A program made the translations under genes and the position numbers. Shown here piece after piece: positions 1-19,259 of a stretch of 25,532 nt of DNA (position 1 is its first letter; each line of letters starts with the position of its first letter). This DNA is from Polychytrium aggregatum (taxonomy: Eukaryota; Chytridiomycota; Chytridiomycetes; Polychytriales): positions 1 through 25,532 of the forward strand of contig NW_026516535.1 of assembly GCF_025602895.1 (NCBI RefSeq), written 5' to 3'. The notes under the pieces are model-generated. The model had not been told where the DNA came from and ran no database searches. It saw only the letters and a program-made list of their open reading frames with translations.

Positions 1-1032
1 CCCACCCAGCAGGCCATCCAACTACCCTGCGATGTCCAGTTTCATCCGAACAACCAACAGCAGCTGGAGCAAGTTGGCTGTCTCCGCCTTCGTCTCGATG
101 ACTTTACCGTCCTCGATGCCAGCCGAGCAGCCCGGGCATTCGTCAAGCACGGCAGAGTCCATTCCGCTCCGCTCCTGAGCGCATTCATGGAACTCTCGGC
201 AGCCAAGCTACAACCCTCCAACGCCGAAGATGTCATGGACCTGGTGTGGGCGGTCGAATATGCTCAAGACCCTGCCGCCGACGTTTCTGCCAGGACGGCG
301 TTCTTCAAGCGAGTTCTCGCAGCCATCGACCAAGCGCCGCTGGACGCCTGGAGCACGAGGAGCCTCTCGGTCGTCGTCTGGGCATGTGGCCCACTCCTCT
401 GCGAAACACCGGGGCTTGTCTGCCGCATCGAAAGCTCTGTGCTGTATCGACTGGATGGCATCGAGCCTTACCATCTCGGCAAGCTACTGTTTCGTTTGGC
501 TGAAAGTGGCCACGCCTCGCAAGAGCTGTTTACTCGCGCCGCAGACACCATCGTCAGACGCATCGCAGGATTCGATCGAGAGCTCGTCGAGATCGCAGCC
601 GCATACGTCAAGATGGATGCCATGGCCCCCGCCCTCCAGGCGGCCCTCACTGCACAGATCCTCCGAACAGCCGGCCGGTTTGCGGTGGTGGATCTATGCC
701 GCGTGCTGGCTTCTCTCTCGGTGCTCAGGCCAGCGCCCCGTGGTGATCTCTCGAAGCTGCTGGTGCATCTGACGGAGCGGCTCGATGGGCTGGCTGCTTG
801 CGATGTGATTCTCATCCTCAAGACAGTGGAATCGATGGATACAAATGGTCTGAGCGAAGCTGCCTCGCTGATCAAGGTCGTCGCGACTAGAGCCGCCGAA
901 GATTGGGACAACATGACGGTTGGAAGCCGTGGCAGAATCAAGAGCCTTCTGGTGCAGCTCGACTGCCCGCCTGAGCTCTTGGCACACATCGAGTCCAAGG
1001 AGTACATCTACCAGCACGACGTGCCGTTCTGA
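1..1032 (+). CDS. Helical-repeat protein, 5'-partial (possibly FASTK/OPR-like)
   Basis: The frame is open from the first base of the window to a TGA ending at 1032, giving 343 visible residues, so the true start (or an upstream exon) lies outside. The first ATG inside is at 187, but sensible protein sequence continues upstream of it. The chain is almost entirely alpha-helical in character, with Leu/Ala-rich segments of roughly 35-40 residues. Phrases such as LSVVVWACGPL and VDLCRVLASLSVL recall the 'LxxLxWAxAxL' helices of FASTK, octatricopeptide and related organellar RNA-binding repeat proteins. It ends in KEYIYQHDVPF, with no visible RAP domain or membrane segment. Function is not established; a mitochondrial RNA-processing role would be inference only. 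It is convergent with the MAPR gene, with 185 bp between the stop codons. Confidence 0.6.
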   Translation, partial: PTQQAIQLPCDVQFHPNNQQQLEQVGCLRLRLDDFTVLDASRAARAFVKHGRVHSAPLLSAFMELSAAKLQPSNAEDVMDLVWAVEYAQDPAADVSARTAFFKRVLAAIDQAPLDAWSTRSLSVVVWACGPLLCETPGLVCRIESSVLYRLDGIEPYHLGKLLFRLAESGHASQELFTRAADTIVRRIAGFDRELVEIAAAYVKMDAMAPALQAALTAQILRTAGRFAVVDLCRVLASLSVLRPAPRGDLSKLLVHLTERLDGLAACDVILILKTVESMDTNGLSEAASLIKVVATRAAEDWDNMTVGSRGRIKSLLVQLDCPPELLAHIESKEYIYQHDVPF

Positions 1033-1217
1033 CGAATCCCGGCTGGCCGCTAAAGCACGGGGGATGCTGATGAATACTGCCACTTTGAGCGGCGTGTATT
1101 GGCCAACGATGGTGCGTCGAGATGCTGCCGGGCCATGTCCGTGCTGCCACTCGCTCCTCATCAACTACAGTGGATGACAACAGGCCCAAAGCCCCCGTTC
1201 GAACAAGCCGGCGTGCC

Positions 1218-2197
1218 TCAGCAGGGTTCTGGAAGCGGTGCGTCCTCGGGAATCGGATCGTGGATCACTTCGCCGACGTAAAAGTACTTTTCATGCGTTT
1301 CGTAGAAATCGGCCCATCCGTCGATCGACTGAAGCCACGTCGAGCAGATGCAACCCGGCGAGCCAGCAGCATTAGTCGAGCGACGCAGACGAGGCAGATA
1401 TCGACGCAATGCCCAGAGCAATGCATACAGCAGATGGCGCACCTTAATCTCGCCCTCGGTGAGTCCACGGACGTCATGCGTAAGATGCGTCTTGAAGCAT
1501 CCGGTGACGTATGCTCTTGAGGCGTCGACGCCGGCAAAGAACGAATAGCCACCGCCCTGGTTGAGGGAAGACTCAGTCGGGCTTTCCTGAACCAGGCACA
1601 GCCGGGCCGAGAGCGCCAGAGTCGACAGAAACTCACCTTGCCGTAATACTGCTGGCCGGCCGTGACGTCAAAGACCTTGCCTCTGGGGAGAATAGCAGCC
1701 GATCATCAATACAACACAGGCATCGAGCTACAGCCCTCCCAGCCAGCCGATTGCTGCCTTACCTGATGGCGATATAGACGGGCTTGTCGGGATCGCTGCC
1801 GTCGTACTGGGCGAGCTCTTCGGGAGTGAATTTGCGTGTGGGTCGCTACAGCAGCGAGCGAGCAGTGTTAGGCAGAGGCGACCGATGATCGACGTAGTTT
1901 CATTGGGAGATGCATCTCGACGCACCCACGACAGGATGCGGCAGGCCGTACCGGAAGGAAGTGGTGGACGTTGGGCAGCTTCTGGCCAAAGGTGTAGGTG
2001 CCGGTGGTGACCTTGGAGACGGACAGAGCAAAGCCCACGGCGCCGACGAGGTAGACCAGGGCCCAGCCGACGGCCGCAAGGCAGGATGTCTTGCGGATGC
2101 CCTTGCTTTTGGCGGAGGGGTCGCTGGCATGCTTGCCCTTGGACGACACGGCGGGATCGGCCGCGGGGGCCGGCTTTCTCTGCTTCAGGTCGGACAT
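1218..2197 (-). CDS. Membrane-anchored MAPR family (cytochrome b5-like heme-binding) protein
   Basis: Five exons (2197-1952, 1845-1763, 1682-1637, 1556-1443, 1328-1218) join in phase to a 199-residue protein. All four introns (106, 80, 80 and 114 nt) have GT..AG ends, and the last carries a GACTAAT branch-like site. The start is the ATG at 2197. Residues about 39-60 form one transmembrane helix after a basic Ala/Pro/Lys-rich tail, consistent with an ER-anchored protein. The b5-like fold follows: RKFTPEELAQYDGSDPDKP, then GKVFDVTAGQQYYGKGGGYS, then FFAGVDASRAYVTGCF. Tyr122/123 and Tyr129 lie where MAPR proteins coordinate heme through tyrosine rather than histidine. The ending with a WADFYETHEKYFYVGEV stretch is closer to neuferricin/CYB5D2 and its fungal relatives than to PGRMC1/Dap1. 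Family members bind heme and support sterol-modifying P450s; that role is known for the family and inferred here. Confidence 0.9.
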
Positions 2198-2490
2198 GGC
2201 TGGCTGGCGGTGGTGCTTGGTTGCGGTGTGGTGTGGCTGCGGCTGCGGTTATGGCGATGATGGGATGGGATGGTGCTGGGTGCGATGAGGGGAGAAAGGT
2301 GCAATCGCCAAAGGCCAAAGCCAAAGCCAAGTGCGTGCTGGCGCAATCAGCGCCAACAGCCAACACAACCGCTGCCGATGCAGCTGCCCTTTGGTCTCGA
2401 AAAGATCTGTCTGGTGCGGTCGCATGCAGGCCTTTATTTCGGATGCTGGGACGCAGGGCCATCAGCCAGACACTCTCGTATTCCGGCCGC

Positions 2491-3473
2491 TCAATTGGAC
2501 TCGTAGATGCGCTTGATCTCGGGGTCGTCAACGAGGTCGACGGGGGCAAATCCTTTCGAGTTCTTGATGGACCGATCGGCGCCCCGCTCGAGAAGCAGCT
2601 TGACCAGCTCGCGGGCACCCAAGAATGTGGCTGCAGATACAAATGCCCGGCGACGAGAGTGTCAGGGTGCGATGCGGCTTTGCACACCGCCCGACGGCTC
2701 TCCTCCTGCTGTGTTTGCTTGCCGATGGAGTACTCACCCAGATGGAGCGCTGTGTTGCCGCCCTGTGGGTCCGTCAAAATCGAACAGCGATGCATGTGAG
2801 AAGCCAGCGGCGAGGAAGCGGATGCAAACGACTGCCCCCGCAGACCAGATCCACCAGCAATCGGCAACGGGCAGCGCATATCGCTCCAGCATCAACCGAC
2901 CCCGAACGCGACGTCAATATCGTCCTTCAGCGTTCGCTCGACAATGTCCTTTGCAATTGCATCCTGGCCGCACATGAGCGCCCACTGCAGAGCAGTAATG
3001 CTGCCGAGATAAGCTCCCAGGAACTTGTACGCGTCCAGCTCCAGCTCGGCGTCGAACTTGATGGTGGGATCTCGGTGCTTGGCCGATGTGAGAGACTTGT
3101 CGTTGAGGAGGATGTTCCGGACGTCGTCGGCACGGTTCTGCTTTATCGCTGCAGATAGGGAGAGGCGTTAGATCCCAGTCGTGCGTCGAGCATGAAGCGA
3201 GTGCGATATGCAGGCCGTGTGATGGAACATGCAAAATGCGTCTATCTGGACAGCAAGTGGTTGCGTCGTGGCTGGAGCGGATCGCGAGAACGCAACAGAT
3301 CGCAGGAAGACCGATGTGGAAGATGAGAGGGCAGGGAAGGCATCGGAAATGCTATGCTCGCCGTCTGGACTACCTTCAAACAGCACCTGTGTTGGGAGCA
3401 GAGTATTGGCGTTAGTACAGCCTCGTCTGGCGGACAAAGTTGCTGAACGAGTACCTACTTCTATGGAGGCCAT
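2491..3473 (-). CDS. Small ankyrin-repeat protein (possibly YGL242C-like)
   Basis: Exons 3473-3459 (15 nt), 3386-3374 (13 nt), 3148-2901, 2762-2738 (25 nt) and 2630-2491 join in phase to 146 residues beginning MASIEVLFEAIKQNRADDV. Intron 1 contains a perfect TACTAAC branch site (3411-3417). The centre reads LGSITALQWALMCGQDAIAK, and the C-terminal part is an ankyrin repeat (GGNTALHLAATFLGARELV, then KLLLERGADRSIKNSKGF), ending IKRIYESN. Ankyrin repeats bind protein partners; no catalytic motif is present. The domain layout resembles the small fungal ankyrin family that includes yeast YGL242C, from memory only. The donor of intron 3 is the unusual GTCGGT. An alternative acceptor at 2831 would add about 23 residues in frame (ending ILTDPQ), so the exon 3/4 junction is the least certain. 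The gene is divergent from the HIT gene. Confidence 0.82.
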
Positions 3474-3741
3474 GGCGGCAGAGACCGAGTTGGATGATCA
3501 GCAGATGGCCTCGGAGATGCTCCCGAGACAGATGCAGTGCAAGCGCTTGGATGGGTGCCGACGGCGACAGCAGCGACGCTGTGCTCTTGGCAGCAGACCA
3601 ATCAGCCCCGAGCGATAACTGCCGACGACGATGAGCAGCGGCGGTGATTGTGCGGCCTTCCCGCCAATTCCGAGTGCTGCGGGGGGGGGAGAGCGGACGG
3701 GCGACGGACACGAAGGCATCGTGTGGGGGTTGATTTAGGAT

Positions 3742-3831
3742 TGATATCATATTTGGTACTGATATCATATTTGGTACTGATATTGTATTTGGTACTGATA
3801 TCGTATTTGGTACTGATATCATATCTGGGAT
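3742..3831. repeat. 18-bp AT-rich tandem repeat, 5 copies
   Basis: The unit TGATATCATATTTGGTAC is present twice perfectly (3742-3759, 3760-3777), then with one to three changes (3778-3795, 3796-3813, 3814-3831). Each unit contains the self-complementary TGATATCA, in a region otherwise GC-rich. It sits in the shared promoter region, so it could bind a dimeric factor, or simply be a minisatellite. Confidence 0.95.
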
Positions 3832-3910
3832 TAACATCAAGCACCAACCCCATAACCAATCCAATAACCAACCTGGCAAGCGCCCGTCCCCACGAGACCA
3901 TGTGCCGCCG

Positions 3911-3973
3911 TGCTCCGAGCACTCCAGCGCTCCTCCGAACACTCCAGCGCTCCTCCGAACACTCCAGCGCTCT
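3911..3973. repeat. 20-bp tandem repeat, about 3 copies
   Basis: The unit ACTCCAGCGCTCCTCCGAAC occurs at 3921-3940 and 3941-3960, with a partial copy from 3961 and a degenerate one before 3921. It lies in the ankyrin/HIT intergenic region, 130-190 bp upstream of the HIT start codon. Confidence 0.9.
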
Positions 3974-4105
3974 GCAATGCGCTCGGCAATGTGCTCTCCG
4001 ATGCACCTGGCGATGCGCCCGTCGGTCCTTCAAGGGGCAGTCGCGGCGCCAGCAAGCCTCTCCTCTTTGTCCCCGATCTGCCTTCCAATCCGCGCAACAT
4101 CAGCC

Positions 4106-5409
4106 ATGAGCCATCTCACCGCCAACTGCATCTTCTGCAAGGTCGGCCACTCCCCGGCTGCGTCGCATCGTCGTCGGACTGTCGTCGGACTGTCGTCGCA
4201 TCGTCGCTGCGGGGCCCGTCTTGCTGTTGCTGCCTCTCACCCTTTCCCTCCTCTCTCCTGGCCACCAGATCATCCAAGGTGCCATCCCCTCCCATAAGAT
4301 CCTCGAGACCGAGCTGACCTACGCCTTCCTGGACATCAACCCCATCAGCACCGGCCATGTCCTTGTGATCCCCAAGTGTCCGTATCCTCTTGTCGTGTTG
4401 CTTTCCTGCCATGGCACTCGTCTGCATCAGACCCCTCGCTGATCCGGCTGGTCCTTTTGCCTCTGGCCCACCCCGATGGCCCCGATGGCCCCGATGGCCC
4501 CGATGGCCCCGATGGCCCCGATGGCCCCGATGGCCCCGATGGCCCCGATGGCCCCGATGGCCCTGATGACCCCGACTGGTCCTGCCACCGGCTTGGTTCT
4601 GCAGACCACGCCCAGTTCTTCCACCAGGTGCCCGAGGCCCACCTCGCTGACCTGCTCCCTGCTGCCCAGAGGATCGTCAAGGCCCTCGGCCCTGCCCAGT
4701 ACAACCTGCTCCAGGTATGTCGATCGATGCACCACCAGCCGGTGGCGCTCTCAGGAACGGCATGCCAGAGCTCTGGCTCTGGGTGTTCAGTTCAAGCCAA
4801 TGCACCTAGACCCGATTTCTTGGCGGCAGTGGACGCTAATGCAATCTGCACATACCCTCCCCCTGTATCCAGAACAACGGCCGCCTCGCTCGTAAGTTGC
4901 ACTGATTTCCATATGTCGGGTCCGCGCTTGATCCTGCGGTCGTCTCTGACAAGCCTCTGTTCTGTTTCCTGCCCTCGGCAACTCTTCATGGCGATACACA
5001 GACCAAGCTGGTAAGTAGGCGCATATGGGCTCTGCATACGAGCGTCGATCTCAGGGCTGCACAGGCTTCGGCTGACCCCTGCTTGCTTCATCTATCCGCA
5101 GTGGACCATGTTCATTTCCACATCATGTAAGCGCATCCCACTGTCTTGGCAAAGTAGCAGCGCAGACTTGCGAAACGGGGCTGCATGTTAGATTGCCGAT
5201 CGATTGTCCGTCGCTCTCTGGCGGTCCGCTTGACTTCCCAAGGTGTGTTTTTGAGTCTTACGTTTTGCTGATCTGCCACCCACCTTTCCAACAGTCCCAA
5301 GACTGAGACTGAAGGCCTCGGTATCCAGTGGCCCATGAAGAGCCCTACCCAGGAGGAGCTTGCCGCCATCAAGGCCCAGATTGTCTCCAAGCTCGAGGAG
5401 AGCAAGTAG
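4106..5409 (+). CDS. HNT1: HIT-family purine nucleoside phosphoramidase (HINT1/Hnt1 type)
   Basis: Seven exons (4106-4141, 4269-4377, 4605-4714, 4873-4891, 5002-5010, 5102-5126, 5295-5409) join in phase to 140 residues, the usual HINT length. The start reads MSHLTANCIFCK, followed by IIQGAIPSHKILETELTYAF and LDINPISTGHVLVIPKYHA, the hallmark HIT N-terminal half. The catalytic histidine triad is HVHFHIIPK at residues 97-105, preceded by NNGRLAHQAVD. HINT enzymes hydrolyse AMP-lysine and other adenosine phosphoramidates in cytosol and nucleus. Exon 5 is only 9 nt (encoding the middle of AHQAV), and without it the triad loses phase with the upstream half. Introns 1 and 2 start with GTCGGC and GTCCGT rather than the usual GTRNGT. 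Intron 2 contains a 9-bp minisatellite. An AATAAA lies 248 nt after the stop. Confidence 0.95.
4471..4579. repeat. 9-bp minisatellite (CCCCGATGG) inside HIT intron 2
   Basis: Ten perfect head-to-tail copies of CCCCGATGG fill 4471-4560, followed by about two degenerate copies. Because the unit is a multiple of three and has no stop, several frames stay open and give spurious PDG-, MAP- or GAI-repeat peptides. The HIT protein skips it by splicing from 4377 to 4605. Confidence 0.95.
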
Positions 5410-6132
5410 GAAAGGTTGTGGTCGTGCTTCATCTCGCCAGCATGGTTCGCTCCTGCTCAAAGTGATCTTGTTGGGCCACATCGTGTGGATGCCGACTCTC
5501 ACTGTCCCACAACTGAAGCTGAAACTAACTCATATCCGCCCCATTCCGCCAGCGATGCGCTTCCTGCAGTGCTAGGCGGCTCAAATCAAGATCCTGCCCG
5601 TCGTGTGCCCTCCCTTTGAGGTCTCAATCGACAGCGCGATCGAAATCCGTCTCTGTAATAAACACCCTCCACCGGATGGATCATCGAATATACCGCACAG
5701 TCACCTGTATAGCCCACTCAGCCCGATAGTCTCCAGGGTTCGGGATGCTAGCGAGGGATGGCATCTGGACCTGTCTGTGGACAATGCCATTCATCTGGAG
5801 CTCACCATGCGACTGCTTGGTCGGCGAGGCGGGGTGGTGCATCTGAGAAGACGAACAGAAAGCGGGGACTGTGATTGCTGAAATGGCGGGCTGTTGGTCT
5901 GGGCCCATGAAGAGCGAGGGCACTCGGCCGAGCACGCCTTCGGTCTTGCATCGGGAAGTGCATACGTGAAAGATGCCTGGGAACCAGTCGATAAAGATAG
6001 TACGCGGCATTTGCGCATGCTTCCATGACTTGTGGCTGCTCGCCGATGCTGTTCGCTTCAGCATTGGATGCAGACACGCCTGCAAGCAGCTTTCTGACGG
6101 CGCATGGATCCTAACCAGCAATCCCGTTCCCC
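5410..6132. other. Intergenic region between HIT and TMEM216-like genes
   Basis: About 720 bp hold the 3' UTR of the HIT gene and the promoter of the TMEM216-like gene. A 146-codon open frame on the minus strand (6121-5681) is present, but its product shows no domain or repeat and it would start 12 bp from the TMEM216 start codon. I do not call it a gene. No RNA gene or repeat was seen. Confidence 0.4.
5657..5662 (+). promoter_or_regulatory. Candidate poly(A) signal AATAAA for the HIT gene
   Basis: A perfect AATAAA occurs 248 nt downstream of the HIT stop codon, in an otherwise GC-rich sequence. It would give a 3' UTR of about 270 nt. Confidence 0.45.
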
Positions 6133-7737: not shown

Positions 7738-10700
7738 CTATTCCATTTCCATCGGCGAGCGGCAAAACGGACAGGTTCCCTTCTGGAGGACCTGATAGCA
7801 CCATTCGTCCGAGAGAAAGAAGCGCTGGCACACGGCACACATCACCACTCGGGTCTCTGACCGCGCCATGCGATAGTACTCGTTTCTGATGCTGGCCTTG
7901 CCCCACTTCCGGATAAAGACCGAGTGGCGGTCCAGCTTCATGAGAGCCGTGCGGTTGAGCCGAGTTGGCATGTACACTGGATTGAGCCCTGCACCACCGG
8001 CCAGCCGAGAGCTATAGTCCTCGTCGCCAGACTCTTTGAGCAGAATCTCGGTGAGAGTATTGCCGTCCTCGCTGCGAGCATAGCTGTCGTAGGGCTTCTC
8101 GGACTCGATCAACTCCAGGGCTTCCTTCTCCGAGATGTCGGGGTCAAAGAGAAACTGAACCAGCGGCAAGTTGCAGTACGAGTAGTGCGAGTGAATCATA
8201 GGCTCCATGCAGTTGATGCAAAAGTCGCCCTTGAGATTAAAGTACGGATTGACGCTCGAGCACTGGAAGCACGACGGCAGGTGCTCCTCGTTGTCGACGA
8301 AGGGCTTGGCTCGGATAATGAGTGTGCCAACGTCGATGGCATCGGCCCACGGCTCGGGCACCCGGAGTGCCTGCATCTTCTCGTATGCATATCGCGCAAA
8401 CTTGAATGTGCCTAGGCTTTGCGAGATCTTGGTGATGGCATAGAGGACGTACACTCTCGACAGGCCCCTGGGCAGCACCGGGTTCTTGTTGAAGAAGTGC
8501 AGGATAAACTTGGCCATGCACAGGATCGACTCGGGCAGATGCGAGGTGAAAGGCTCGTCAATGTAGCGCTGCACAAAGTAGTAGGCGTAGTAGACGTCGG
8601 CCAGCTCCTGATACCGATAGAAGGCCACGACATCCTGGCGCTGCTTGAAGCCCAGCTCGTTGTACTCGACATTGGCGGGGATCTGCTCGAGCGTCTCCAT
8701 CGCCAGCATCCAGTAGTAATATGCGACATCGTCAAACTGCTTCTCGACGATGGCGTTGCGGGTCAGCTTCTCGAGCACCAGCACGGCCTCGGCAGCGCGC
8801 CCAGCCTTGCGGTAGTTGAGCTGTGCCTCGATGTATCGGCCGTTGGCGGCGAGCCAATTGGCGTAGGGCAGATAGATTTGCTCGTTGAACTCGGGGTGGG
8901 TCTCGGCCAGACGGAAGGCCTCGTCCCAGTGCTGAAGCTCGATGTGGAGGTTCAACAGATGGCCAATGTCCCCCATCTTGACGAGAGTCTCGGCCGCGTA
9001 GGCGTGGTGGTTGTGCTTGCGGAAAAAGTGTACGCAGCGGCTCAGGCTCTTGGTTTCGGCCTTGTTGAGACGACGGACGACCTCGATGAGCTTGTCGAGC
9101 CAGCCATTGGGTCCGAGGATGTTGATGGCCTGGATGTAGTCGCCGACTTCGATATAGGTGGTCGCCGCGGCGAGCAGATTGTTTTGGTCCTGCTGCATTT
9201 GCGCCTTTCGCTTGAGGATCTCCTCTCGGTTGGTGTTGGTTTCCTCGGCGATCTGGGTGGCGTACTCCCACATGTTGAGCTCGGTGTACATCTCGATGGC
9301 CTTTTGTGGATTCCCACCGCGCTTGAAGAGCCTTGCAGCCTGGACCGGAGCATATGAGTGAGGGGAGAGGGAGGAAGGGAGGGAGAAGGAGAGGGGAACG
9401 ACATGGCCTGGTGAACTCAAGTTTACCTTCAACAAGCCGCATGCTTCTCCATACTTTGGATGGCCGCGTGATTTCGTTGTGGCCTGTCCATGCTCATATT
9501 AAACCAGCAGTTGCTGTCGACATCAACCTACCTCGTGGTACCTGCCGCTGTAGGCCATGATCTCTCCCATCCAGATATCCTGCACCGCCGTGCCGTCGCT
9601 TTTGGTTCGCTCGATTTGCCCAATCAGATCAATGTACTGCAGATCCCTGATGCGCGTGAAAGACTTTCGGGCCACCTCAAGCTGCATGTTCTCCAGGGCC
9701 TCCATGGCGAGACGTTTCCAGTCGCTTTCGCTCACGCCCAGGCACGCAACTCGGTAGCCCTGCACATAGTCCTTCTTTTCGATGTACCGCTCCAACGAGG
9801 TCGAGTGCGGCACATCGATCGTGGACATGGAGTAGCTGTGCAGACAAAAGACTTTGGAGCCCTTGAAGCCCACGACAAAGCCCTGCATCTTCTGTTGGTG
9901 TGGGGCAAAGTTGTTTGCCTTGATGTTGAGCACGCCATTGCCGGAGAAGCACAGCATATCTTCCATCTCAGAGTTCCAGGCCACGCTGTTGGCGTTGGGC
10001 TCCTGGTAGAGCAGCTCCTTTGTTTTGGTGCTGTAGACGAGGCAGGTGTTGTGCTCGTCGACGATGGCCAGCTTGGTGCGGCCCATGCTGAGATCGAGGC
10101 ACCGAATCGAGGTCGATTGCTTGATGAACGGGATCGGGAAGGGGTTGTCGATGAAGATCTGCAGGATCTGTCCGTTCTTAAGTCCGATCTGCAGACCCTC
10201 TCGACCGGGCGGGCCGCCAATGACCTTGATGTACCGGATGAGTGCATCCAAGGTCCACTCACGCTCTTTCTCGCCGAGAAAGTTGTACATTTGCAGCTTC
10301 TTTTCGAGACACAGGATGATGTGCTGGGAGGTCACGACCAGGAGGTTGCAGTCGAGCTTCTTCTGCAGCTTCTCCTTGATGCGGTAGTGCATGTCCGTGG
10401 CGTCGTCGTGGAAGACCTCGTAAATGATCACCCGGTCGGGGAGCTGCACCGCAAGCCTGTCTTTATAGACAGCTATCTTCTTTACAAAATCACGGCACTT
10501 GATGCGAGCGCGCTGCTCGGTCGACAGGTGCTGGATGACCACGTCGGTCATGTTTTCACGGTAGGCATATCGATCATGGTAGAGCCCGTGGACGGTATTG
10601 AAGAGGATCTGGAAGACCGCTATCGTTCCGTCGTGGCAGCCCACAGCGACATAGTTCTGCTGCGGCTTGACCTTGCAGCACCAGACCCAGTTCTCACGCT

Positions 10701-12036
10701 CACAGACGACGCCGAGCCGGATGCCCTCGCTCGTCCACAAGGTTGCCTTGCGGTCAGACCCGCCCATGACGACATACTCGCCGCTTGGGAAGAACGAGAC
10801 ACAGCACGGATCGTAGTTGAGGTTGCGGTCCTTGCCGATTTGGCGGCCGTTTGCCTGGAAGAACGACAGCTTTTGGCTCCAGTCGGCGACCGCCAGGACC
10901 TCATAGTCACGATCGGCGCTGGGGCAAAATGCCAACGACCAAATGGGCGATGTGCCGCGCTCGATCCGGACCTTTTCGTCGCCGTTCTTGTTTCGGATCG
11001 AGACATTGCCGTTGAACATGCCCAGAGCAAAGCACTGGCCGTCGCTTGTCCAAGAGACCGCCAGGATGCGCGAAGAGACCTTGTGCGTGAACAACGAAGG
11101 ACATGAGTGAGTGTGCAAGTGTGCAAGTGTGCAAGTGTACTGGTGTGCAAGTGCGCAAGTGTCGAGTGATGCCGTAAAGCGCTGTTGTCGTGGAAGTGCG
11201 ATTATGGACCCGAGTCGAATGTCATTGGCGCGGAAAGCTAGATGACAGGCCTCTGTGCGGAAGCGATGCTGATTTGGGCAGCGTCGACATCAAAGAGCGC
11301 ATCTGACGCTGCCGCCGCCCGCTATCCGAGGGAAGAGCGCCTGATCTCTGCATCCTCATATTTTGGTCATTCTCCTCGCCACCATTCTCATACCCACACT
11401 CGGCAGCTCACCTTATATTTCGAGACTGACTTTTGCTCAGGCGACCACAGCCCAAAGTCCGAGGTCGAGCACGACACGACCATGCTCGATGCCGGATTGC
11501 ACGCGACGGCCTGAATCGGGTCGTTGTGGGAAAACTTGAGGACGCCCTCGAGTTTGGGGCTCCAGATGATGACCTGCTTGTCGGCGCCGCCAGACACGAA
11601 ACGCTTGCCATCTGGAGCATAGTCGACGCAGTAGACGGTGTCCTTGTGAGCCTTGAGGGCCTGGATCAGCTCCCCAGACATGGAATCGTAGACGAGCACC
11701 TCGTGCCCTGCTGCGGCGATGATCTGGGTGCCATCAGGACGAAAGGTCAAATCGTAGATGGGCTGCGATGATCCGGTGCGGTCTTGGACCTGCGATGGTG
11801 TTGGGCATAACGGGCAGGGGGAGAAGACGAGCCAGAGTGTGAGAAGGCAAGCGAGACGGGGCAGCGTTGACCATCTTGGTCATGGCGATTTCGTTCTGGC
11901 TGGATCTCGCGTCACAATCCGTGAGCCCAACGAACGGAGGGAAAAGTGGGCGTGCAGGATTGCCAACTACAGGGCAGCCAGCACAGCAAGAGTGTCTCAA
12001 GCGAACCTTATCAGACCACGTCGGGACGGTACGCAT
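7738..12036 (-). CDS. IFT122: Intraflagellar transport protein IFT122 (IFT-A complex)
   Basis: Four exons (12036-12007, 11789-11412, 11079-9532, 9339-7738) join in phase to 1185 residues, matching the family length of about 1180-1240. The start [10 protein letters not shown] is typical. The N-terminal half is a WD40 propeller region with family phrases such as [68 protein letters not shown] and [20 protein letters not shown]. Exon 4 encodes the helical TPR-like solenoid, beginning [18 protein letters not shown]. The C-terminus carries zinc-ligand pairs: C1009-x2-C1012 with C1026-x2-C1029, and C1153-x2-C1156 with C1175-x2-C1178. IFT122 is a core subunit of the retrograde IFT-A train, needed for cilia and flagella. 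Its presence argues for a flagellated life stage. The third, solenoid-side intron (9340-9531) falls between propeller and solenoid parts. No frameshift was seen. Confidence 0.97.
11102..11165. repeat. 8-bp tandem repeat in IFT122 intron 2
   Basis: About six copies of TGCAAGTG with substitutions lie just beyond the exon 3 acceptor of IFT122, inside the 332-nt intron. It makes false open frames on both strands (His/Thr/Leu-rich on the minus strand). Confidence 0.85.
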
Positions 12037-12443: not shown

Positions 12444-15400
12444 TCAAGCGCCTCGCTTGCGGAACCACTTGAAGAGCCCCTGGAGTTTGGAAGCCTCGAG
12501 TATCTTCAGTTCCCCTTTGGCTTTTCTGGCTTCTCCTTCAGCCTGTCTTGCTGCTTCAGCCTGTCTTGCTGCTTCAGCCTGTCTTGCTGCTTCAGCCTGT
12601 CTTGCTGCTTCAATCTCTCGGACTTGCTCTTCATAGAGGGCTGTTGCGGCAGTTCGAGCTTGTTTGTAGGATGCGATGTGCGCGTGGATCTCGGGAGTGT
12701 CGAGATGGATGGGCTAATGTGGTGGAGATGTTAGCATGAGTCGCGGAAAGCAGAATGATGATGTGAACTTACCGTGACAATAGTAGGGCGGAGTGGAATG
12801 GCGCTGCTGAACAGGACGAGTGCACCCGATGGAGTGAAGAGGTGGAAGCTCCAATCGCCAAAGAGGGCCAGTGGGATCATGGCAGCGTTCTTGCCATGAC
12901 GGATCCACGGGGACTGTCCGCTATCACTCCCAACCCACTCGGATGAACCAGGTGGAGCGAACGCATCGACAAAGTTGCGGGGAGATTCGTTGGAACGAAC
13001 AAATGTGTCGCCTGCACGGACCCAGATGATTTCTGCGTCGGAATAATCACGGGACTTGATCGAGTTGCCATCGGGAGAGATCGTTACAAAGTTGACTTGG
13101 TTTAAGTGTCCGTCAAGAGTCTGGTTCACCTGGCCCGTGGTAGTATCCCACACTTTGATGGCCTTGTCTTTAGAACCAGAGACAATCCACTTGCCATCAG
13201 GTGAGATTGCGACCGAGTTGACCCAACTGGTGTGTCCCTTGAGGGTGTGCTTCAGCCGGCCAGTGGCGGCATCCCACATCTTGATGGTGCTGTCACCAGA
13301 ACCAGAGACGACCCACCTGCCATCCGGTGAGATTACCACTGAGCGCACATAGCCTGTGTGTCCCTCGAGGGTGTGTTTCACTTGGCCCGTGGTGGCATCC
13401 CATACCTTGATGGTCTTGTCCACCGAGCCAGAGACAATCCACTTGCCATCAGGTGAGATCGCCACGGAGAACACACTGGCTGTATGTCCCTCGAGAGTGT
13501 GCTTCAACTGGCCAGTGGTGGCATCCCACATCTTGATGGTGCTGTCACCAGAACCAGAGACGATCCACCTGCCATCAGGTGAGATCGCCACGGAGAACAC
13601 ACTGCCTGTGTGTCCCTCGAGGGTGTGTTTCACTTGGCCCGTGGTGGCATCCCATACCTTGATGGTCTTGTCCACCGAGCCAGAGACAATCCACTTGCCA
13701 TCAGGTGAGATCGCCACGGAGAACACACTGGCTGTATGTCCCTCGAGAGTGTGTTTCACTTGGCCCGTGGTGGCATCCCACATCTTGATGGTGCTGTCAC
13801 CAGAACCAGAGACGATCCACCTGCCATCGGGTGAGATTGCCACTGAGCGCACATAGCCTGTGTGTCCCTCGAGGGTGTGCTTCACTTGGCCCGTGGTGGC
13901 ATCCCATACCTTGATGGTCTTGTCCACCGAGCCAGAGACAATCCACTTGCCATCAGGTGAGATCACGACAGAATTGACGCCGTCCGTGTGTCCCTCGAGA
14001 GTGTGCTTCAACTGGCCAGTGGTGGCATCCCACACCTTGATTGTATTGTCGCCGGAACCGGAGGCAATCCACTTGCCATCGGGTGAGATCGCCACGGAGC
14101 GCACTTCTCTTGTGTGTCCAAAGAGGATGTCCTTCAACTGGCCTGTGGTGGCATCCCACACCTTGATGGTCTCGTCCCAAGAGCCAGAGACAATCCACTT
14201 GCCATCGGGTGAGATCGCCACGGAGGTCACCCTGTCTGTGTGTCCCTCGAGGGTGTGCTTCAACTGACCTGTGGTGGCATCCCACACCTTGATGGTCTCG
14301 TCCCAAGAGCCAGAGACAATCCACTTGCCATCGGGTGAGATTGCCACAGAATTCACCCGGTTCTTGTGATCGGCAAGCGTCATCTCACACGGATCCCAGG
14401 TGGGTGCTGGACCGCAAGTGACCAGGAACGGGATCTTGTCCTCGAGCTGGGTGGCATATGTCTTGTAGATCGCCGTCTCCTTCGGTGTGAATGCATACCC
14501 CGAGTTGTACACCTGTGGCGCACTCTTGATGATCGGATAGGCAAACTCGCGGATGAATCGATACGTGTCCTTGACCAGTTCCTTCGTGGTGTCGTCGACG
14601 ATGGTGCTGGGTGCCTTGGCGATCACTCCTCGCAGCACAGCCAGTTGCTCGATGATCGGCTTGACCACATGTGTGAGCGACCCACACTCGAGCCAGAAGA
14701 ACACATGAGTCTTGACGAACCGAGTGAGCACCGCTGCCACATCGACCATCTCGGCCGACTGCCAAATCGGACTCGACTCGGCCTCTCCTTCCACACACCA
14801 CACAAAGTGTGTGATCCAGTGCGCGACGCTGTATCGCAGCGACGGTGTGATCTTGACTGCGACCCTGTCCTCGAGGTCTGGGATCTTGTCGTGAAAGTCG
14901 TAGATATCGCAGATGTTGATCACTGGCTCGTGCGAGAGGATCACTCCGAGACATCCCTTGGCAAACACCGTGTGGAACGAGTCCGACACATGCCACGGAT
15001 GGCCAGTCGATGCGTCGCCGAGGAGATAGTCCGCCACCGACTTGTGGTTGAACTTGACCTCGGTGTTGGTGGACTGGCTGTCTCGGGGACCCAATCCATT
15101 AGCGCCAGGATCGAGGACCAGACTGAGGCTCGTGAGACACTCGCGAACGACGCCGATCTCGAGTCCAAACACATCGGCGATTATCTGTGGGGTCAGGATC
15201 GACTGGGCCGTGGCAATCGCCGACACCACCGTGACCAGCTCGGCCGGGTGGCTCGACTGCGAGTGGATCTTGGCGAATGCTTGGGTGCAGTACTCTATTG
15301 GATTCTCGCAGCTTTGAGGGATAGGGAGACAAAACTGGACTCGTGGCTCGTACTGATCTTGCTTCGGCTGGGCGGCGACGTGCACGGCGTCCTCCCGTCG

Positions 15401-16000
15401 CTCAATTGCATTGGAAGCTTCGTGGATTCCGGTGGAAAGACGAGAAGGAACAACAGAGCTGCGCGAATGACCAGGCATTCTCAGCCCAGAAACCGAGGAA
15501 GACGCCGCGAAGGCACTGGGTGCATACGATGGGATTGAGCTCATATGGCTTGTAATCGATCTTTCATTTGCATCGTTGAAGAAAGGGGCAGCATATTGTA
15601 TGACCGGCTCGGCTAACGATCGCTCACTTGGAAGCAGTGGGTAGCTTCCTGGTTGGTTGCTTGGCGGAAGATACGGCAGTGCATCATATGGCTGACGATA
15701 TTGAGGAGGAAATGGCGGTAGGTCGTCGGGTTCAAGATATTTCGGAAGATACGATGATGGATACGAGAGCGGATATTGCGGGGCAGTTGGTGGGTCGGTT
15801 GGTGGATCATTCGACGGATTGGCTGGCGTGGAATATCGAAACGACACAGGACTGAGTTCAAGCACATTGCTCATGTCCTCCTCAGCCAGAGCAGCTGTCA
15901 TGTTCGGACGGAGAATGCCGACAAGGCAGATGAGGCAAGGAGAACGCAGATGAGGCAAGGAGATGCGACAGGATTGGGGCAGGCGAGGCAAGGTGGCCAT
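12444..16000 (-). CDS. NACHT-less NLR-like WD40 propeller protein with charged helical tail
   Basis: Exon 1 is 16000-12773 and exon 2 is 12713-12444. They join by a 59-nt GT..AG intron to 1165 residues, using the first in-frame ATG; an ATG at 15901 is an alternative that removes 33 residues partly encoded by a 20-bp duplication. In order: a Pro/Tyr-rich disordered region (about 40-150); a winged-helix-like segment (LTPQIIADVFGLEIGVVREC) followed by NHKSVADYLL near residue 319, the pattern that follows NACHT in fungal NACHT-WD40 NLRs; a helical region; ten WD40 repeats (540-960) of 42 residues, plus a degenerate eleventh; and an exon-2 tail (1077-1165). The tail has four EAARQA hexamers and ends LQGLFKWFRKRGA, which is basic and amphipathic. 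No P-loop is present, so this is not a complete NLR. The likely role is ligand recognition or partner binding with the adjacent divergent TIR-NB-ARC-TPR gene (inference). Confidence 0.85.
12539..12610. repeat. 18-bp tandem repeat encoding EAARQA, 4 copies
   Basis: Four consecutive perfect copies of CAGCCTGTCTTGCTGCTT (plus strand) lie in exon 2 of the WD40 gene. On the minus strand each encodes Glu-Ala-Ala-Arg-Gln-Ala. The period is in frame, so copy-number change would lengthen or shorten the helix without a frameshift. Confidence 0.95.
13121..14383 (-). repeat. Ten tandem 126-bp WD40 repeats (homogenised array)
   Basis: Repeat starts, in coding direction, are at 14383 (43 residues), then 14254, 14128, 14002, 13876, 13750, 13624, 13498, 13372 and 13246. 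The consensus backbone SVAISPDGKWIVSGS..IKVWDATTGQ is nearly invariant. Variation falls at the two residues after EGHT (DR, RE, DG, GY, AS, GS, AS, GY, SW in repeats 2-10) and the residue after SGS (W, W, G, V, G, V, G, V, G, K). The segment 13352-13501 is identical to 13604-13753, a 252-bp offset, showing recent duplication or conversion of a two-repeat block. Confidence 0.95.
15926..15965. repeat. 20-bp direct duplication near the WD40 gene start
   Basis: The segment GCAGATGAGGCAAGGAGA occurs twice in tandem with a 20-bp period. It lies between the two candidate start codons of the WD40 gene (15901 and 16000), so residues encoded there are doubtful. Confidence 0.85.
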
Positions 16001-16125
16001 GACCAAGAGGCGATGTCAAGGACATCGATGTGCTCCGCCACCCGCACCAGTTCGTCTCCATCATCGTGGCCAGCCTCTCTGCCCGCTTGCTCGGCCATCG
16101 CCAGTCCAACGATACCCATCCGGCC
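16001..16125. promoter_or_regulatory. Shared head-to-head promoter of the WD40 and TIR genes
   Basis: Only 125 bp (or 224 bp if the WD40 gene starts at 15901) separate the start codons of two divergent genes. Transcription of both must start within this segment or inside the facing 5' end. No TATA box was seen. Co-regulation is inferred from the spacing alone. Confidence 0.55.
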
Positions 16126-19100
16126 ATGTTGACCGCCACCAGCAGCCGGCTCTACGCCTGCAACAACCACGGCCCCGACCACGACCTGTTCCTCTCGTAC
16201 CGGGTCGCCACCGATGCAGACACCGCCAGGGAACTCAAGCAGATGCTCTCCTTGGCTGCCCTCCGTCGATACGGCAAACCGCTTGCTGTCTTCCACGATG
16301 TCGACTGCCTCGTCGACGCCCGCGACTGGCGAGACGGCTTTCTTGGTGCCCTCCCCAAGAGCAAGGTCGTTATCCTCCTCCTCAGCCAGGCTTCGATGGA
16401 CCTGATGAAGGACAAGGTCCTCTCGAGCCAGGAGGACAATGTCGTCCTCGAAATCAAGACCGCCCTCGACCTCAAGGATGCCAATCCCGCTCTGCCTGTC
16501 CTTCCCCTTGGAATCGCCACCAAGGAGACCAAGGACGGCGTCGATGTCTTCACTCCCTTCCTACCGCACAAGGTGTCTCTCCCCGACGACCCGGCCTTTG
16601 CCTCGGTCAAGGAAACCCTCGGCAGAATGAACCAGATCCAGATGTTTGGCATTCGTCCCGACCAGATGCACCAGCGAGTCTATCGCATCCTCAACCTGCT
16701 CCACCCCGTGCAAGTCGATTCCGCCACCAAAATCGCACTCTACGACTCGCTCTTCTGCGACTCCAAGTTCCGAGTCGATCCCGCCCACCTCGACACCTTG
16801 CTCAAGCAGCTCACCCTGACTGGCCGCGCCGTCATCTCGGGCATGGGCGGCATGGGCAAGTCCGTCCTGGCCCTCCAGATTCTCCATTTCATGATGGGCA
16901 CCCTCGACGTCAGCAACAAGGACGACCTCAAAACCGTCAAAGACGAGACCATCGGCATCAAGCCGCAGTACAACCAAGTCTTTTGGATCAACTGCTCGAC
17001 CGAGTCGACTGCCCTCGATGGGCTGTGCGAACTGTTTGATGGTGTCGAGCCAGAGAAGGTCAAGAAGCATGCCGCCAAGTTCCTCGCCAACACTCACGGC
17101 TATCTCCTGGTGCTCGACAATGTCGACGACATCAGCGTGGTCGACTCTGTGTTTGAGCACTCCAAGTCGGTCGGGTTCAGCGGCGATGTGGTGGTGACGA
17201 CCCGGCTGGCCTCGCTGCCTCCCGGTGCATTCGCCAGTGCTCTCAAAGCCAAGAACCCTGGATACAGACACGACCCACTCCGCCTGGGTAACTGGGACGA
17301 TGCAACCACGCTCGATTACATCCAGAAGATCTCTCCAATCTTCTCTGAAAAGGTAGGGGCGGACGCAACAAATGAGACGCTGAAGCGAATCATGACCAAG
17401 ATCGACGGATATCCGCTCGTTATTCAGACATTCATGACCTTCTACGAGAACAACGAGGTGCCGCTGTCCGAGATCGAGCGGCTGTTCTCCAAGGTCCTCG
17501 AGGAGCAGGAAGGCGAGGACGAGACTCGGTCGTCGCTCAAGGTGATTGTGGATCTGTCGCTGGACTCGATTATGAAGCGAGGGAATGAAGGCATCGAGGC
17601 AGCCAGGCTGTTCGGTGCCCTCAGTCTGGTGGCGCCGACCAACATCCAGTTCGAGTTGATCAAGGAGATCGTGCAGAAGATGGAGCTCAAGACCGATGGT
17701 GAGTTGTGCTGCGTGGAGATGCACACAGGATGCGACTGAGCACCGCGGCTGCGTGTTGCTGACATTGTCTCATCACAGTGACTGATCTGATCAAGATGGT
17801 GATCCAAAGCGGCCTTCTCCGAAGCGGAGCCGAAGGGCTGTACTCGACCCACTCGCTCACCCAGCAGTTAGCTCGAAGCTACATCAGTCAACACGGAGAG
17901 CTGAGGGTCGAGGACATTGAGGATGCCACGGGCGGGGCACTGCTTCAGTTGACCGTATCGCTGCTTGCAGATGCCTATCCCTATGCCGGGCATCTTGACC
18001 GCTTTGCATCGCTGGCGGTTCCAGATCGATACACAAAGTATCTCCACCAAGCGACTATCTACCGCATTGCATCCATGGCAGAGACCCGTGGCTTCTTTGG
18101 CAAGGCAAGAGATGTCTACGAGCCGTACGTTGACCGATGCGCCGAGTTTTACGGCAGACGCCAGCACCCAGAAGTTGCCACTGCAATGCACTATCTCGGC
18201 GATGTCGTGTATTACCAGGGTGACTACGGGTCTGCCTCCAAGCACTACGAGGAGGCACTCGGCATCTTCAACGAGATCTATGGTCCGCACCGTTATCTGC
18301 CGGCTGCCACTACGATCCAAAATATGGGCAATGTCGCGTACAAACAGGGTGACTACGAAACGGCCCTTGCGTATTTCAAAGAGGCCCAAGAGTTCTTCAT
18401 CGAGATGTACGGCACTCGCGAACATGCCAATGTCGCCGCCACGAACTATTCTCTCGGCCAAGTCGCCAACTCACAGGGCCACTACGAGGCCGCACAGGCC
18501 TACTATCAAGAGGCGCTGGAGATCGAATCCAAGGTATATGGCGGCCGGGACCATCCCGAGGTGGCTACCACGATCCGTCAGTTGGGCAGTGTGGCCAATG
18601 CCCAGGGCAACTACGATGCCGCACTGGCATACTACCAAGAGGTCCTTGCCACGTACACGAAGGCGTACGGCACACGAGAGCACCCTTCAGTTGCCACCAC
18701 GCTCTTTGAGATGGGTAATGTTGCGTTTTCGCAGGACAATATCGAGGCCGCCTTCGCATACTACCAAGAGGCCCTCGACATCAAGACCAAGGCGTACGGC
18801 ACACGCAAACACCCTGAAGTCGGCATAATCATCCACCGCCTGGGTAAAGTCGTGCAGTCTCGAGGCGACTATGATCAAGCCGAGGCACTGTACCAGGAGG
18901 CTCTCAGTATTGGACTCGAAGCGTTCAAGTCTCGGATCCACGAGCATGTTGCACTTGTCCTTGATGCCTCGGGGACGCTAAAGTGCCTCCAAGGCGAGTT
19001 GGCCGAGGCCCAGAGTCTTCTCCAGGAGGCCCTTGACATCTTCACCCAGGTGTACAAAACACGCAAGCACCCCGATGTTGCAACAACTCTCCGCAATCTG

Positions 19101-19259
19101 GGCGATGTGGCGCTTGCCCAGGGCGACGTTGCCAACGCGCTCGCACTGTACCAAGAGGCGCTGGCCATCTGGACTGAGGCCATCAGAAACCCAAACCACA
19201 AGGACATTGTTGCTGTCCTTGGAAGCATTGCTACCGTCGAGAACAAAGCCCGCGAGTAG
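16126..19259 (+). CDS. TIR / NB-ARC / TPR STAND protein (NLR-like immune receptor)
   Basis: Exons 16126-17698 and 17779-19259 join by an 80-nt intron to 1017 residues. 16126 is the first in-frame ATG; the frame is open further upstream, but only with non-ATG codons. TIR domain, residues about 18-140: HDLFLSYR, then FHDVDCLVDARDW, then SKVVILLLS. Glu109 in LEIKTAL aligns with the catalytic glutamate of SARM1-type TIRs. NB-ARC: P-loop GMGGMGKS from Gly239, Walker B YLLVLDNVDD (326-335), sensor TTR (358-360), GYPL (428-431), and YSTHSLTQQLA (His549) in the MHD position. About nine TPRs of 42 residues follow (632-1010), kinesin-light-chain-like, with motifs such as GDYETALAYFKEAQEF. Such proteins sense ligands through the repeats, oligomerise on ATP binding and activate the N-terminal effector; here NAD cleavage is predicted, not shown. 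The gene is divergent from the WD40 gene and convergent with BRE1. Confidence 0.93.

Follow-up and report, generated by a model that had tools for sequence, protein, structure and literature searches.

Two genes lie head to head on the whole of contig C261 of the chytrid Polychytrium aggregatum (NW_026516535.1; this 25,532-bp stretch is called the window hereafter). The plus strand encodes a TIR-NB-ARC-TPR protein of the NOD-like receptor (NLR) type, and the minus strand a protein ending in WD40 repeats that lacks the nucleoside triphosphatase (NTPase) domain expected in front of them. Do the two act together as a split receptor, as an earlier note proposed, or do they simply lie side by side? 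We addressed this question by comparing both genes with their paralogues across the P. aggregatum genome (64.7 Mb, 418 contigs). The comparisons suggest a neighbourhood made by shuffling of receptor pieces rather than a conserved two-part sensor. We consider it probable that an autonomous TIR-NLR here adjoins a receptor fragment of recent origin, chimeric or degenerating, that cassette shuffling produced.

Origin of the WD40 gene

The minus-strand gene (16000-12444, with exon 1 ending at 12773 and the gene at 12444) is a chimera, in which the winged-helix domain (WHD)-WD40 module of a (TIR-)NACHT-WD40 NLR is fused at position 15290 to an unrelated Pro/Ser-rich frame. In 20 of the 22 paralogue comparisons listed, some of them allelic or of the same locus, nucleotide similarity of 82-96% breaks off at 15283-15291; the remaining two, both with kinase-WHD-WD40 genes (72-75%), break off earlier. 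For the sequence at 15290-16029, the only copies found were that of the window and an identical one on contig C359 (~174k). The N-terminal frame contains 34 Pro and 29 Ser per 203 residues and, searched alone against Pfam, matched no family up to E 0.1, so that no integrated domain was recognised. Its G+C content at third codon positions (GC3) is 0.47, below the values for the adjoining WHD module (0.75) and the TIR gene (0.74), which makes it unlike the coding sequence compared.

The module itself belongs to a large family. A query of the 320 residues preceding the repeats gave 129 matches in the genome, merged into 125 loci. Judged by coordinates, the element directly upstream of the module is NACHT at 86 of these loci, a kinase at 25 and neither at 14, the window being in the last group; when four of the 14 were fetched, one (L046) turned out to carry a kinase. 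All eight relatives detected outside the genome (four from Chytriomyces, three Joint Genome Institute proteins and one from Mycena) match the NACHT-like NPHP3_N model, match counts in the protein database being restricted by length and word filters. Given these eight relatives and the NACHT upstream at most loci, the most fitting reading of the window's WD40 gene is a NACHT-WD40 NLR minus its front half.

Consistent with this, the gene contains the WHD region, the HKS motif and a WD40 array of 11 repeats in all, as do NACHT-WD40 NLRs; the winged helix is putative, being named by resemblance to these receptors, and the winged-helix HKS region is presumably shared with the Podospora proteins HET-E and HET-D. 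A NACHT search of the genome gave no match on C261 or C359. The motif GK[S/T] is absent from exon 1, and G.GK[S/T] is absent from all three minus-strand frames of 15291-17800; the latter P-loop motif was present in 13 of 13 NACHT loci scanned as a control. These searches bear out the view of the earlier note, identifying the gene as the C-terminal half of a NACHT-WD40 NLR that lacks a P-loop and hence an NTPase, and a NACHT exon spliced onto it was looked for and not found. Having no NTPase, the protein is expected to show no NLR-like switching or oligomerisation. It is very improbable that an undetected upstream exon supplies an NTPase or effector: although relatives carry NACHT upstream and one locus (L031) a TIR-like stretch, the TIR gene fills the corresponding space in the window from the opposite strand, and neither of the searches above returned a NACHT or P-loop there.

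Replaced or lost N-termini recur in this family. At L048 the WHD-WD40 sequence continues into unrelated sequence, while at L047 (C112:930900-934900) a WHD-WD40 fragment is preceded by a DDE-transposase open reading frame (ORF; 1618-2592, plus strand). L045 (C334:382400-386400; 1-1653, minus strand) is a second WHD-WD40 frame with neither NACHT nor kinase, and its Pro/Ser-rich N-terminus is a different, unrelated one; the TIR-NB-ARC query had no match on its contig, C334.

The TIR-NLR and its cassette

The plus-strand gene (16126-19259) encodes a protein of 1017 residues after splicing. A public protein from a 377,065-bp contig, BJ171DRAFT_602263, matches it in length and, across the 560 residues compared, is 100% identical. 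NB-ARC passes the Pfam cut-off (33.4 bits; cut-off 23.5) and the TPRs are strong Pfam matches. Pfam by itself gives the TIR domain just a weak match (E 0.014, under the cut-off), but a profile built from nine TIRs of the family matches SARM1 TIR structures (E 1.3e-7). The glutamate E109, invariant in two family alignments (11/11 and 9/9), aligns in the profile comparison with the glutamate in the SARM1 KEIVTAL stretch, which we take to be the catalytic residue of SARM1. The predicted product is a complete TIR-NB-ARC-TPR receptor whose TIR has a glutamate where the catalytic residue is expected, equipped with both effector and NTPase as had been proposed. From this anatomy it should function by itself. 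All 13 TIR-NB-ARC relatives found in the protein database are P. aggregatum proteins.

The layout of the pair was likewise described correctly: the genes lie on opposite strands with start codons 125 bp apart (ATG 16000 versus 16126), or 224 bp if the WD40 gene starts at ATG 15901, and each has one short intron (80 bp in the TIR gene, 59 bp in the WD40 gene). The conclusion drawn from these introns, a separate evolutionary history, was not upheld. In three relatives (L003, L029 and L030) the TIR-NB-ARC and TPR parts are also split over two successive ORFs, consistent with the same intron, so that few introns are probably a trait of the TIR family and no marker of the window pair.

For the closest TIR paralogue, at C359:38432 (L003, C359:36932-41638), identity in 100-bp steps from 16030 to 17829 amounts to 96-100%, apart from a dip to 72-87% at 17230-17429. 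Beyond 17829 identity drops to 60% and lower, and the TPR parts share 37% of their amino acids. Hence one TIR-NB-ARC cassette stands in front of two different sensors, as would result from recent cassette transfer or gene conversion. At sequence level, no partner family, the WD40 gene included, was found within the 1.5 kb adjoining C359:38432, and two ORFs of L003 showed no domain in a Pfam scan. The WD40 module stands behind several different N-termini and is likewise shuffled, and it is with such shuffling in view that the window pair has to be weighed. C359 itself holds two TIR genes that combine this near-identical TIR-NB-ARC cassette with divergent TPR sensors.

Head-to-head neighbours across the genome

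To place the window pair among its paralogues, the TIR exon 1 was used as a query, giving 80 scored matches and, after merging, 74 loci, many of them allelic. All counts for the genome are minimum values (scored: 139 of 298 candidates for the kinase, 77 of 212 for TIR), and some of the loci counted lie on allelic or duplicated contigs; orientation was assessed with assumed lengths as gene ends and with WHD-WD40, NACHT and kinase as partners. At 64 of the 74 loci none of these families lies head to head within 1 kb, and the TIR family thus seems able to do without a partner. Within this distance, scored partners are divergent in ten cases, tandem in one and convergent in none. Grouped by us according to contig, spacing and score, the ten divergent loci represent three arrangements: C261/C359; C68/C363; and C70 with five loci of equal spacing.

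The partner in the C68/C363 arrangement is a kinase-WHD-WD40 gene. In L029 (C68:226500-234400) this NTPase-less gene (1165-4236, minus strand) lies opposite a TIR-NB-ARC-TPR gene (4442 onward, plus strand) with start codons ~515 bp apart, and C363 is the same by coordinates. In L033 (C70:7000-14500) a TIR-NB-ARC gene has a kinase-Sel1 gene as its head-to-head neighbour, the start codons being ~284 bp apart; for the six kinase/TIR loci of equal spacing, the Sel1-repeat ending is known from this single sequenced locus. Four of the six lie 7-8 kb from a contig start and are perhaps subtelomeric. In L030 (C373:253500-263100) an RVT_1 ORF (3768-6068, minus strand; E 6.9e-18) separates a kinase-WHD-WD40 gene from a TIR-NB-ARC gene, and the spacing at C135 equals that at C373. 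We rejected C68 and C373 as copies of one duplicated pair, the C68 kinase being nearer to copies unpaired with a TIR gene (93%, 90% and 90%) than to the C373 kinase (86%).

Could TIR-NB-ARC-TPR NLRs thus form a recurrent two-gene module with cooperating NTPase-less receptors (kinase-WHD-WD40, kinase-Sel1 or Pro-rich WHD-WD40)? The ten divergent loci in three arrangements, with one tandem and no convergent partner within 1 kb, favour it, as does the reverse-transcriptase ORF on C373, which sits as if splitting a fourth pair. However, the divergent bias, three of four tight arrangements, has p ~0.05 under random orientation. Widening the distance to 5 kb shows an excess in the remaining orientations as well: over all copies, divergent cases number 14, convergent 5 and tandem 4, with 0.7 expected for each, tandem being split in two classes, and general clustering therefore explains much of the divergent excess. 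Seen from the kinase side, a divergent TIR-NB-ARC gene lies within 8 kb at 4 of 25 kinase-WHD-WD40 loci and 10 of 139 kinase matches. We accordingly regard such a module as quite unlikely, and consider slightly less likely still a recurrent split receptor, arisen independently of plant NLR pairs, in which the NLR would be the switch and its partner, whose NTPase was lost or never present, a second, fast-evolving sensor.

Partners might also have been missed by coordinates. Fourteen 5' flanks (two of them allelic), chosen among loci partnerless by coordinates and hence a test for missed partners rather than an independent sample, contained no partner family at sequence level. Pfam scans of one divergent ORF each from eight of the 11 TIR flanks fetched gave one WD40 (L039), one LRR (L034) and one reverse transcriptase (L042), the other five having no domain. 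The WD40-repeat gene in L039 (C397:546000-548700; 866-2062, minus strand; E 6.8e-6, just under the cut-off) is head to head with a TIR-NB-ARC copy whose flank is one of the fourteen; it showed no match to the WD40 module of the window, and we take it to be a housekeeping gene of the WDR70 type.

For the window itself, a functional pair, with the WD40 protein as dedicated sensor, decoy or brake of the TIR-NLR and a bidirectional promoter shared by both genes, appears unlikely. The tight head-to-head arrangement speaks for it, as does the occurrence of other TIR-NLRs head to head with an NTPase-less receptor. So does a length difference between the assembled copies. Over 12755-16840 the C359 copy has one 126-bp WD40 repeat fewer (window 13606-13731) and nine substitutions beside it, the rest being identical; the het-d and het-e genes of Podospora are described as changing length in this manner (PMC12222747, cited, like the other papers here, from part of its text), and the difference could be allelic or stem from the assembly. 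Yet the pair was found only in the window and on C359, the closest TIR paralogue is without it, and the N-terminus of the WD40 protein is both unique and weakly coding-like. These within-genome comparisons speak against the WD40 protein as a dedicated partner of the TIR protein, which the earlier note had put forward as a possibility: no copy of its N-terminus was found beyond window and C359, and the near-identical TIR cassette does without a partner. Of the split NLR, one half stands, the WD40 gene as an NTPase-less NLR part; a dedicated two-gene system finds no support, in view of the 64 of 74 TIR loci and of C359:38432 without a partner. Joint function of the two proteins is possible but has no comparative support, and the kinase-bearing head-to-head pairs are a better place to look for it.

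It is also possible, though less likely than not, that the WD40 gene is no more than a pseudogene, with a NACHT-WD40 copy truncated at its 5' end and left with a frame that runs by chance into non-coding DNA; this overlaps with one half of the preferred explanation. The GC3 of the N-terminal frame and the sister copies adjoining a transposase ORF (L047) or unrelated sequence (L048) fit such an origin. No P. aggregatum protein occurs among the eight module matches, which weighs little because NACHT-bearing paralogues are absent likewise. A long intact frame and the differing repeat number of the two copies argue the other way. Ratios of non-synonymous to synonymous change (dN/dS) in the WHD module, 0.17-0.43 versus 20 paralogue loci, are not specific to the window branch (median between paralogues, 0.34).

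An autonomous TIR-NLR beside a chimeric or degenerating fragment thus has to be set against several observations that weigh against it. The WD40 gene is open throughout, with ~1,165 codons free of stops and frameshifts and with intact splice sites, and its WHD module has one non-synonymous and two synonymous private changes relative to 19 other loci; together, open frame, clean intron and few private changes mean that the gene is not visibly decayed. A run of 203 stop-free codons, as in the N-terminal frame, arose in just 10 of 20,000 mononucleotide shuffles and is uncommon by chance. Finally, a uniform distribution predicts ~0.14 cases per orientation class at 1 kb, fewer than the three tight head-to-head arrangements (10 loci) observed.

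We nevertheless favour this autonomous receptor with its chimeric neighbour. The NLR repertoire of P. aggregatum is large and shuffles, and two of its pieces would have ended up head to head. From what is known of the families, the TPRs of the TIR protein would sense a ligand, NB-ARC would exchange nucleotide and oligomerise, and TIR would cleave NAD+. The neighbouring gene would have arisen when a WHD-WD40 module was joined at 15290 to the unrelated frame, and would most likely be either a fragment in decay or a WD40 protein with a binding role of its own, rather than an obligate partner of the TIR protein.

Known receptor pairs and features of the locus

Plant NLR pairs are marked by two clustered NLRs, head-to-head position and an integrated domain (PMC9528088). 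The window pair resembles RPS4/RRS1, RGA4/RGA5 and RGA1/Rpg5, the last with a kinase domain, in its head-to-head genes and in one TIR-type NLR, and kinase-bearing partners as in Rpg5 occur at other loci of the P. aggregatum genome (PMC9528088). The window pair departs from the plant pairs in that the WD40 partner lacks a nucleotide-binding domain, paralogues do not preserve the pairing and Pfam recognises no integrated domain. The spacing of 125 or 224 bp is also below the several hundred to several thousand bp of plant pairs (PMC9528088).

Among fungal receptors, the Podospora HET-NACHT-WD40 proteins HET-E and HET-D share internally conserved WD40 repeats and copy-number differences with the window gene, repeat instability being known from Podospora (PMC12222747); in contrast to them, the window gene has neither HET nor NACHT, and NACHT-WD40 relatives of it occur at other loci of the genome and in Chytriomyces. 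The nwd2/het-S pairs are likewise neighbouring genes of NLR type (PMC9815663, PMC10197012). They share an amyloid motif, for which no search was made in the window pair, and the neighbour in the window is a sensor half, not an executioner. Head-to-head NLR pairs are known from Sordariales too but are rare, with 13 of 225 two-NLR clusters (PMC12258605); unlike in the window, the genes involved are mostly complete NLRs (19 of 26), and the authors, in the part of the paper cited, see no convergence on the plant type (PMC12258605).

For chytrids, a 2014 survey gives no NLR matches in the part cited (PMC4986451), whereas a later paper states that TIR domains had been reported in NLRs of Chytridiomycota (PMC9815663). 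The listings of our literature search showed none that deals with the NLRs of P. aggregatum. If the pair cooperates, fungi would have an equivalent of the plant sensor/helper NLRs in which one partner lacks a switch. Even without cooperation, the locus illustrates how one chytrid builds its receptors, with a sensor module behind NACHT, kinase or other N-termini, and with dozens of copies in a single genome receptor shuffling becomes measurable.

Table 1. Coordinates of the two genes and the region between them, in window positions.
Feature	Position	Strand	Evidence
WD40 gene exon 2: EAARQA repeats, basic end	12444..12713	-	Translation
WD40 gene intron, 59 bp, GTAAGT..TTAG	12714..12772	-	Splice sites
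WD40 gene exon 1, C-terminal tail	12773..12999	-	30-45% aa identity to other members
WD40 array: 10 closely similar 42-aa repeats and one degenerate	13000..14380	-	Pfam, repeat comparison
Putative winged-helix/helical module, FNHKSVADYLL	14381..15290	-	93-95% aa identity to four aligned NACHT-WD40 paralogues; homology break at 15290
WD40 gene, Pro/Ser-rich N-terminal reading frame, ATG 16000 or 15901	15291..16000	-	Copies only on C261 and C359, no Pfam match, GC3
Spacer between the start codons, 125 bp	16001..16125	.	16030-16125 in cassette common with the C359:38432 paralogue; left of 16030, sole other copy found at C359:174k
TIR-NB-ARC gene exon 1 (SARM1-like TIR, Walker A GMGGMGKS, Walker B LLVLD)	16126..17698	+	Pfam, profile comparison, splicing
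TIR gene intron, 80 bp, GT-AG	17699..17778	+	Spliced protein length equals that of the record protein
TIR gene exon 2: last part of NB-ARC, TPR array	17779..19259	+	Pfam, splicing

Elsewhere in the window, a gene for the intraflagellar transport protein IFT122 (7738-11118, minus strand) adjoins the NLR genes.

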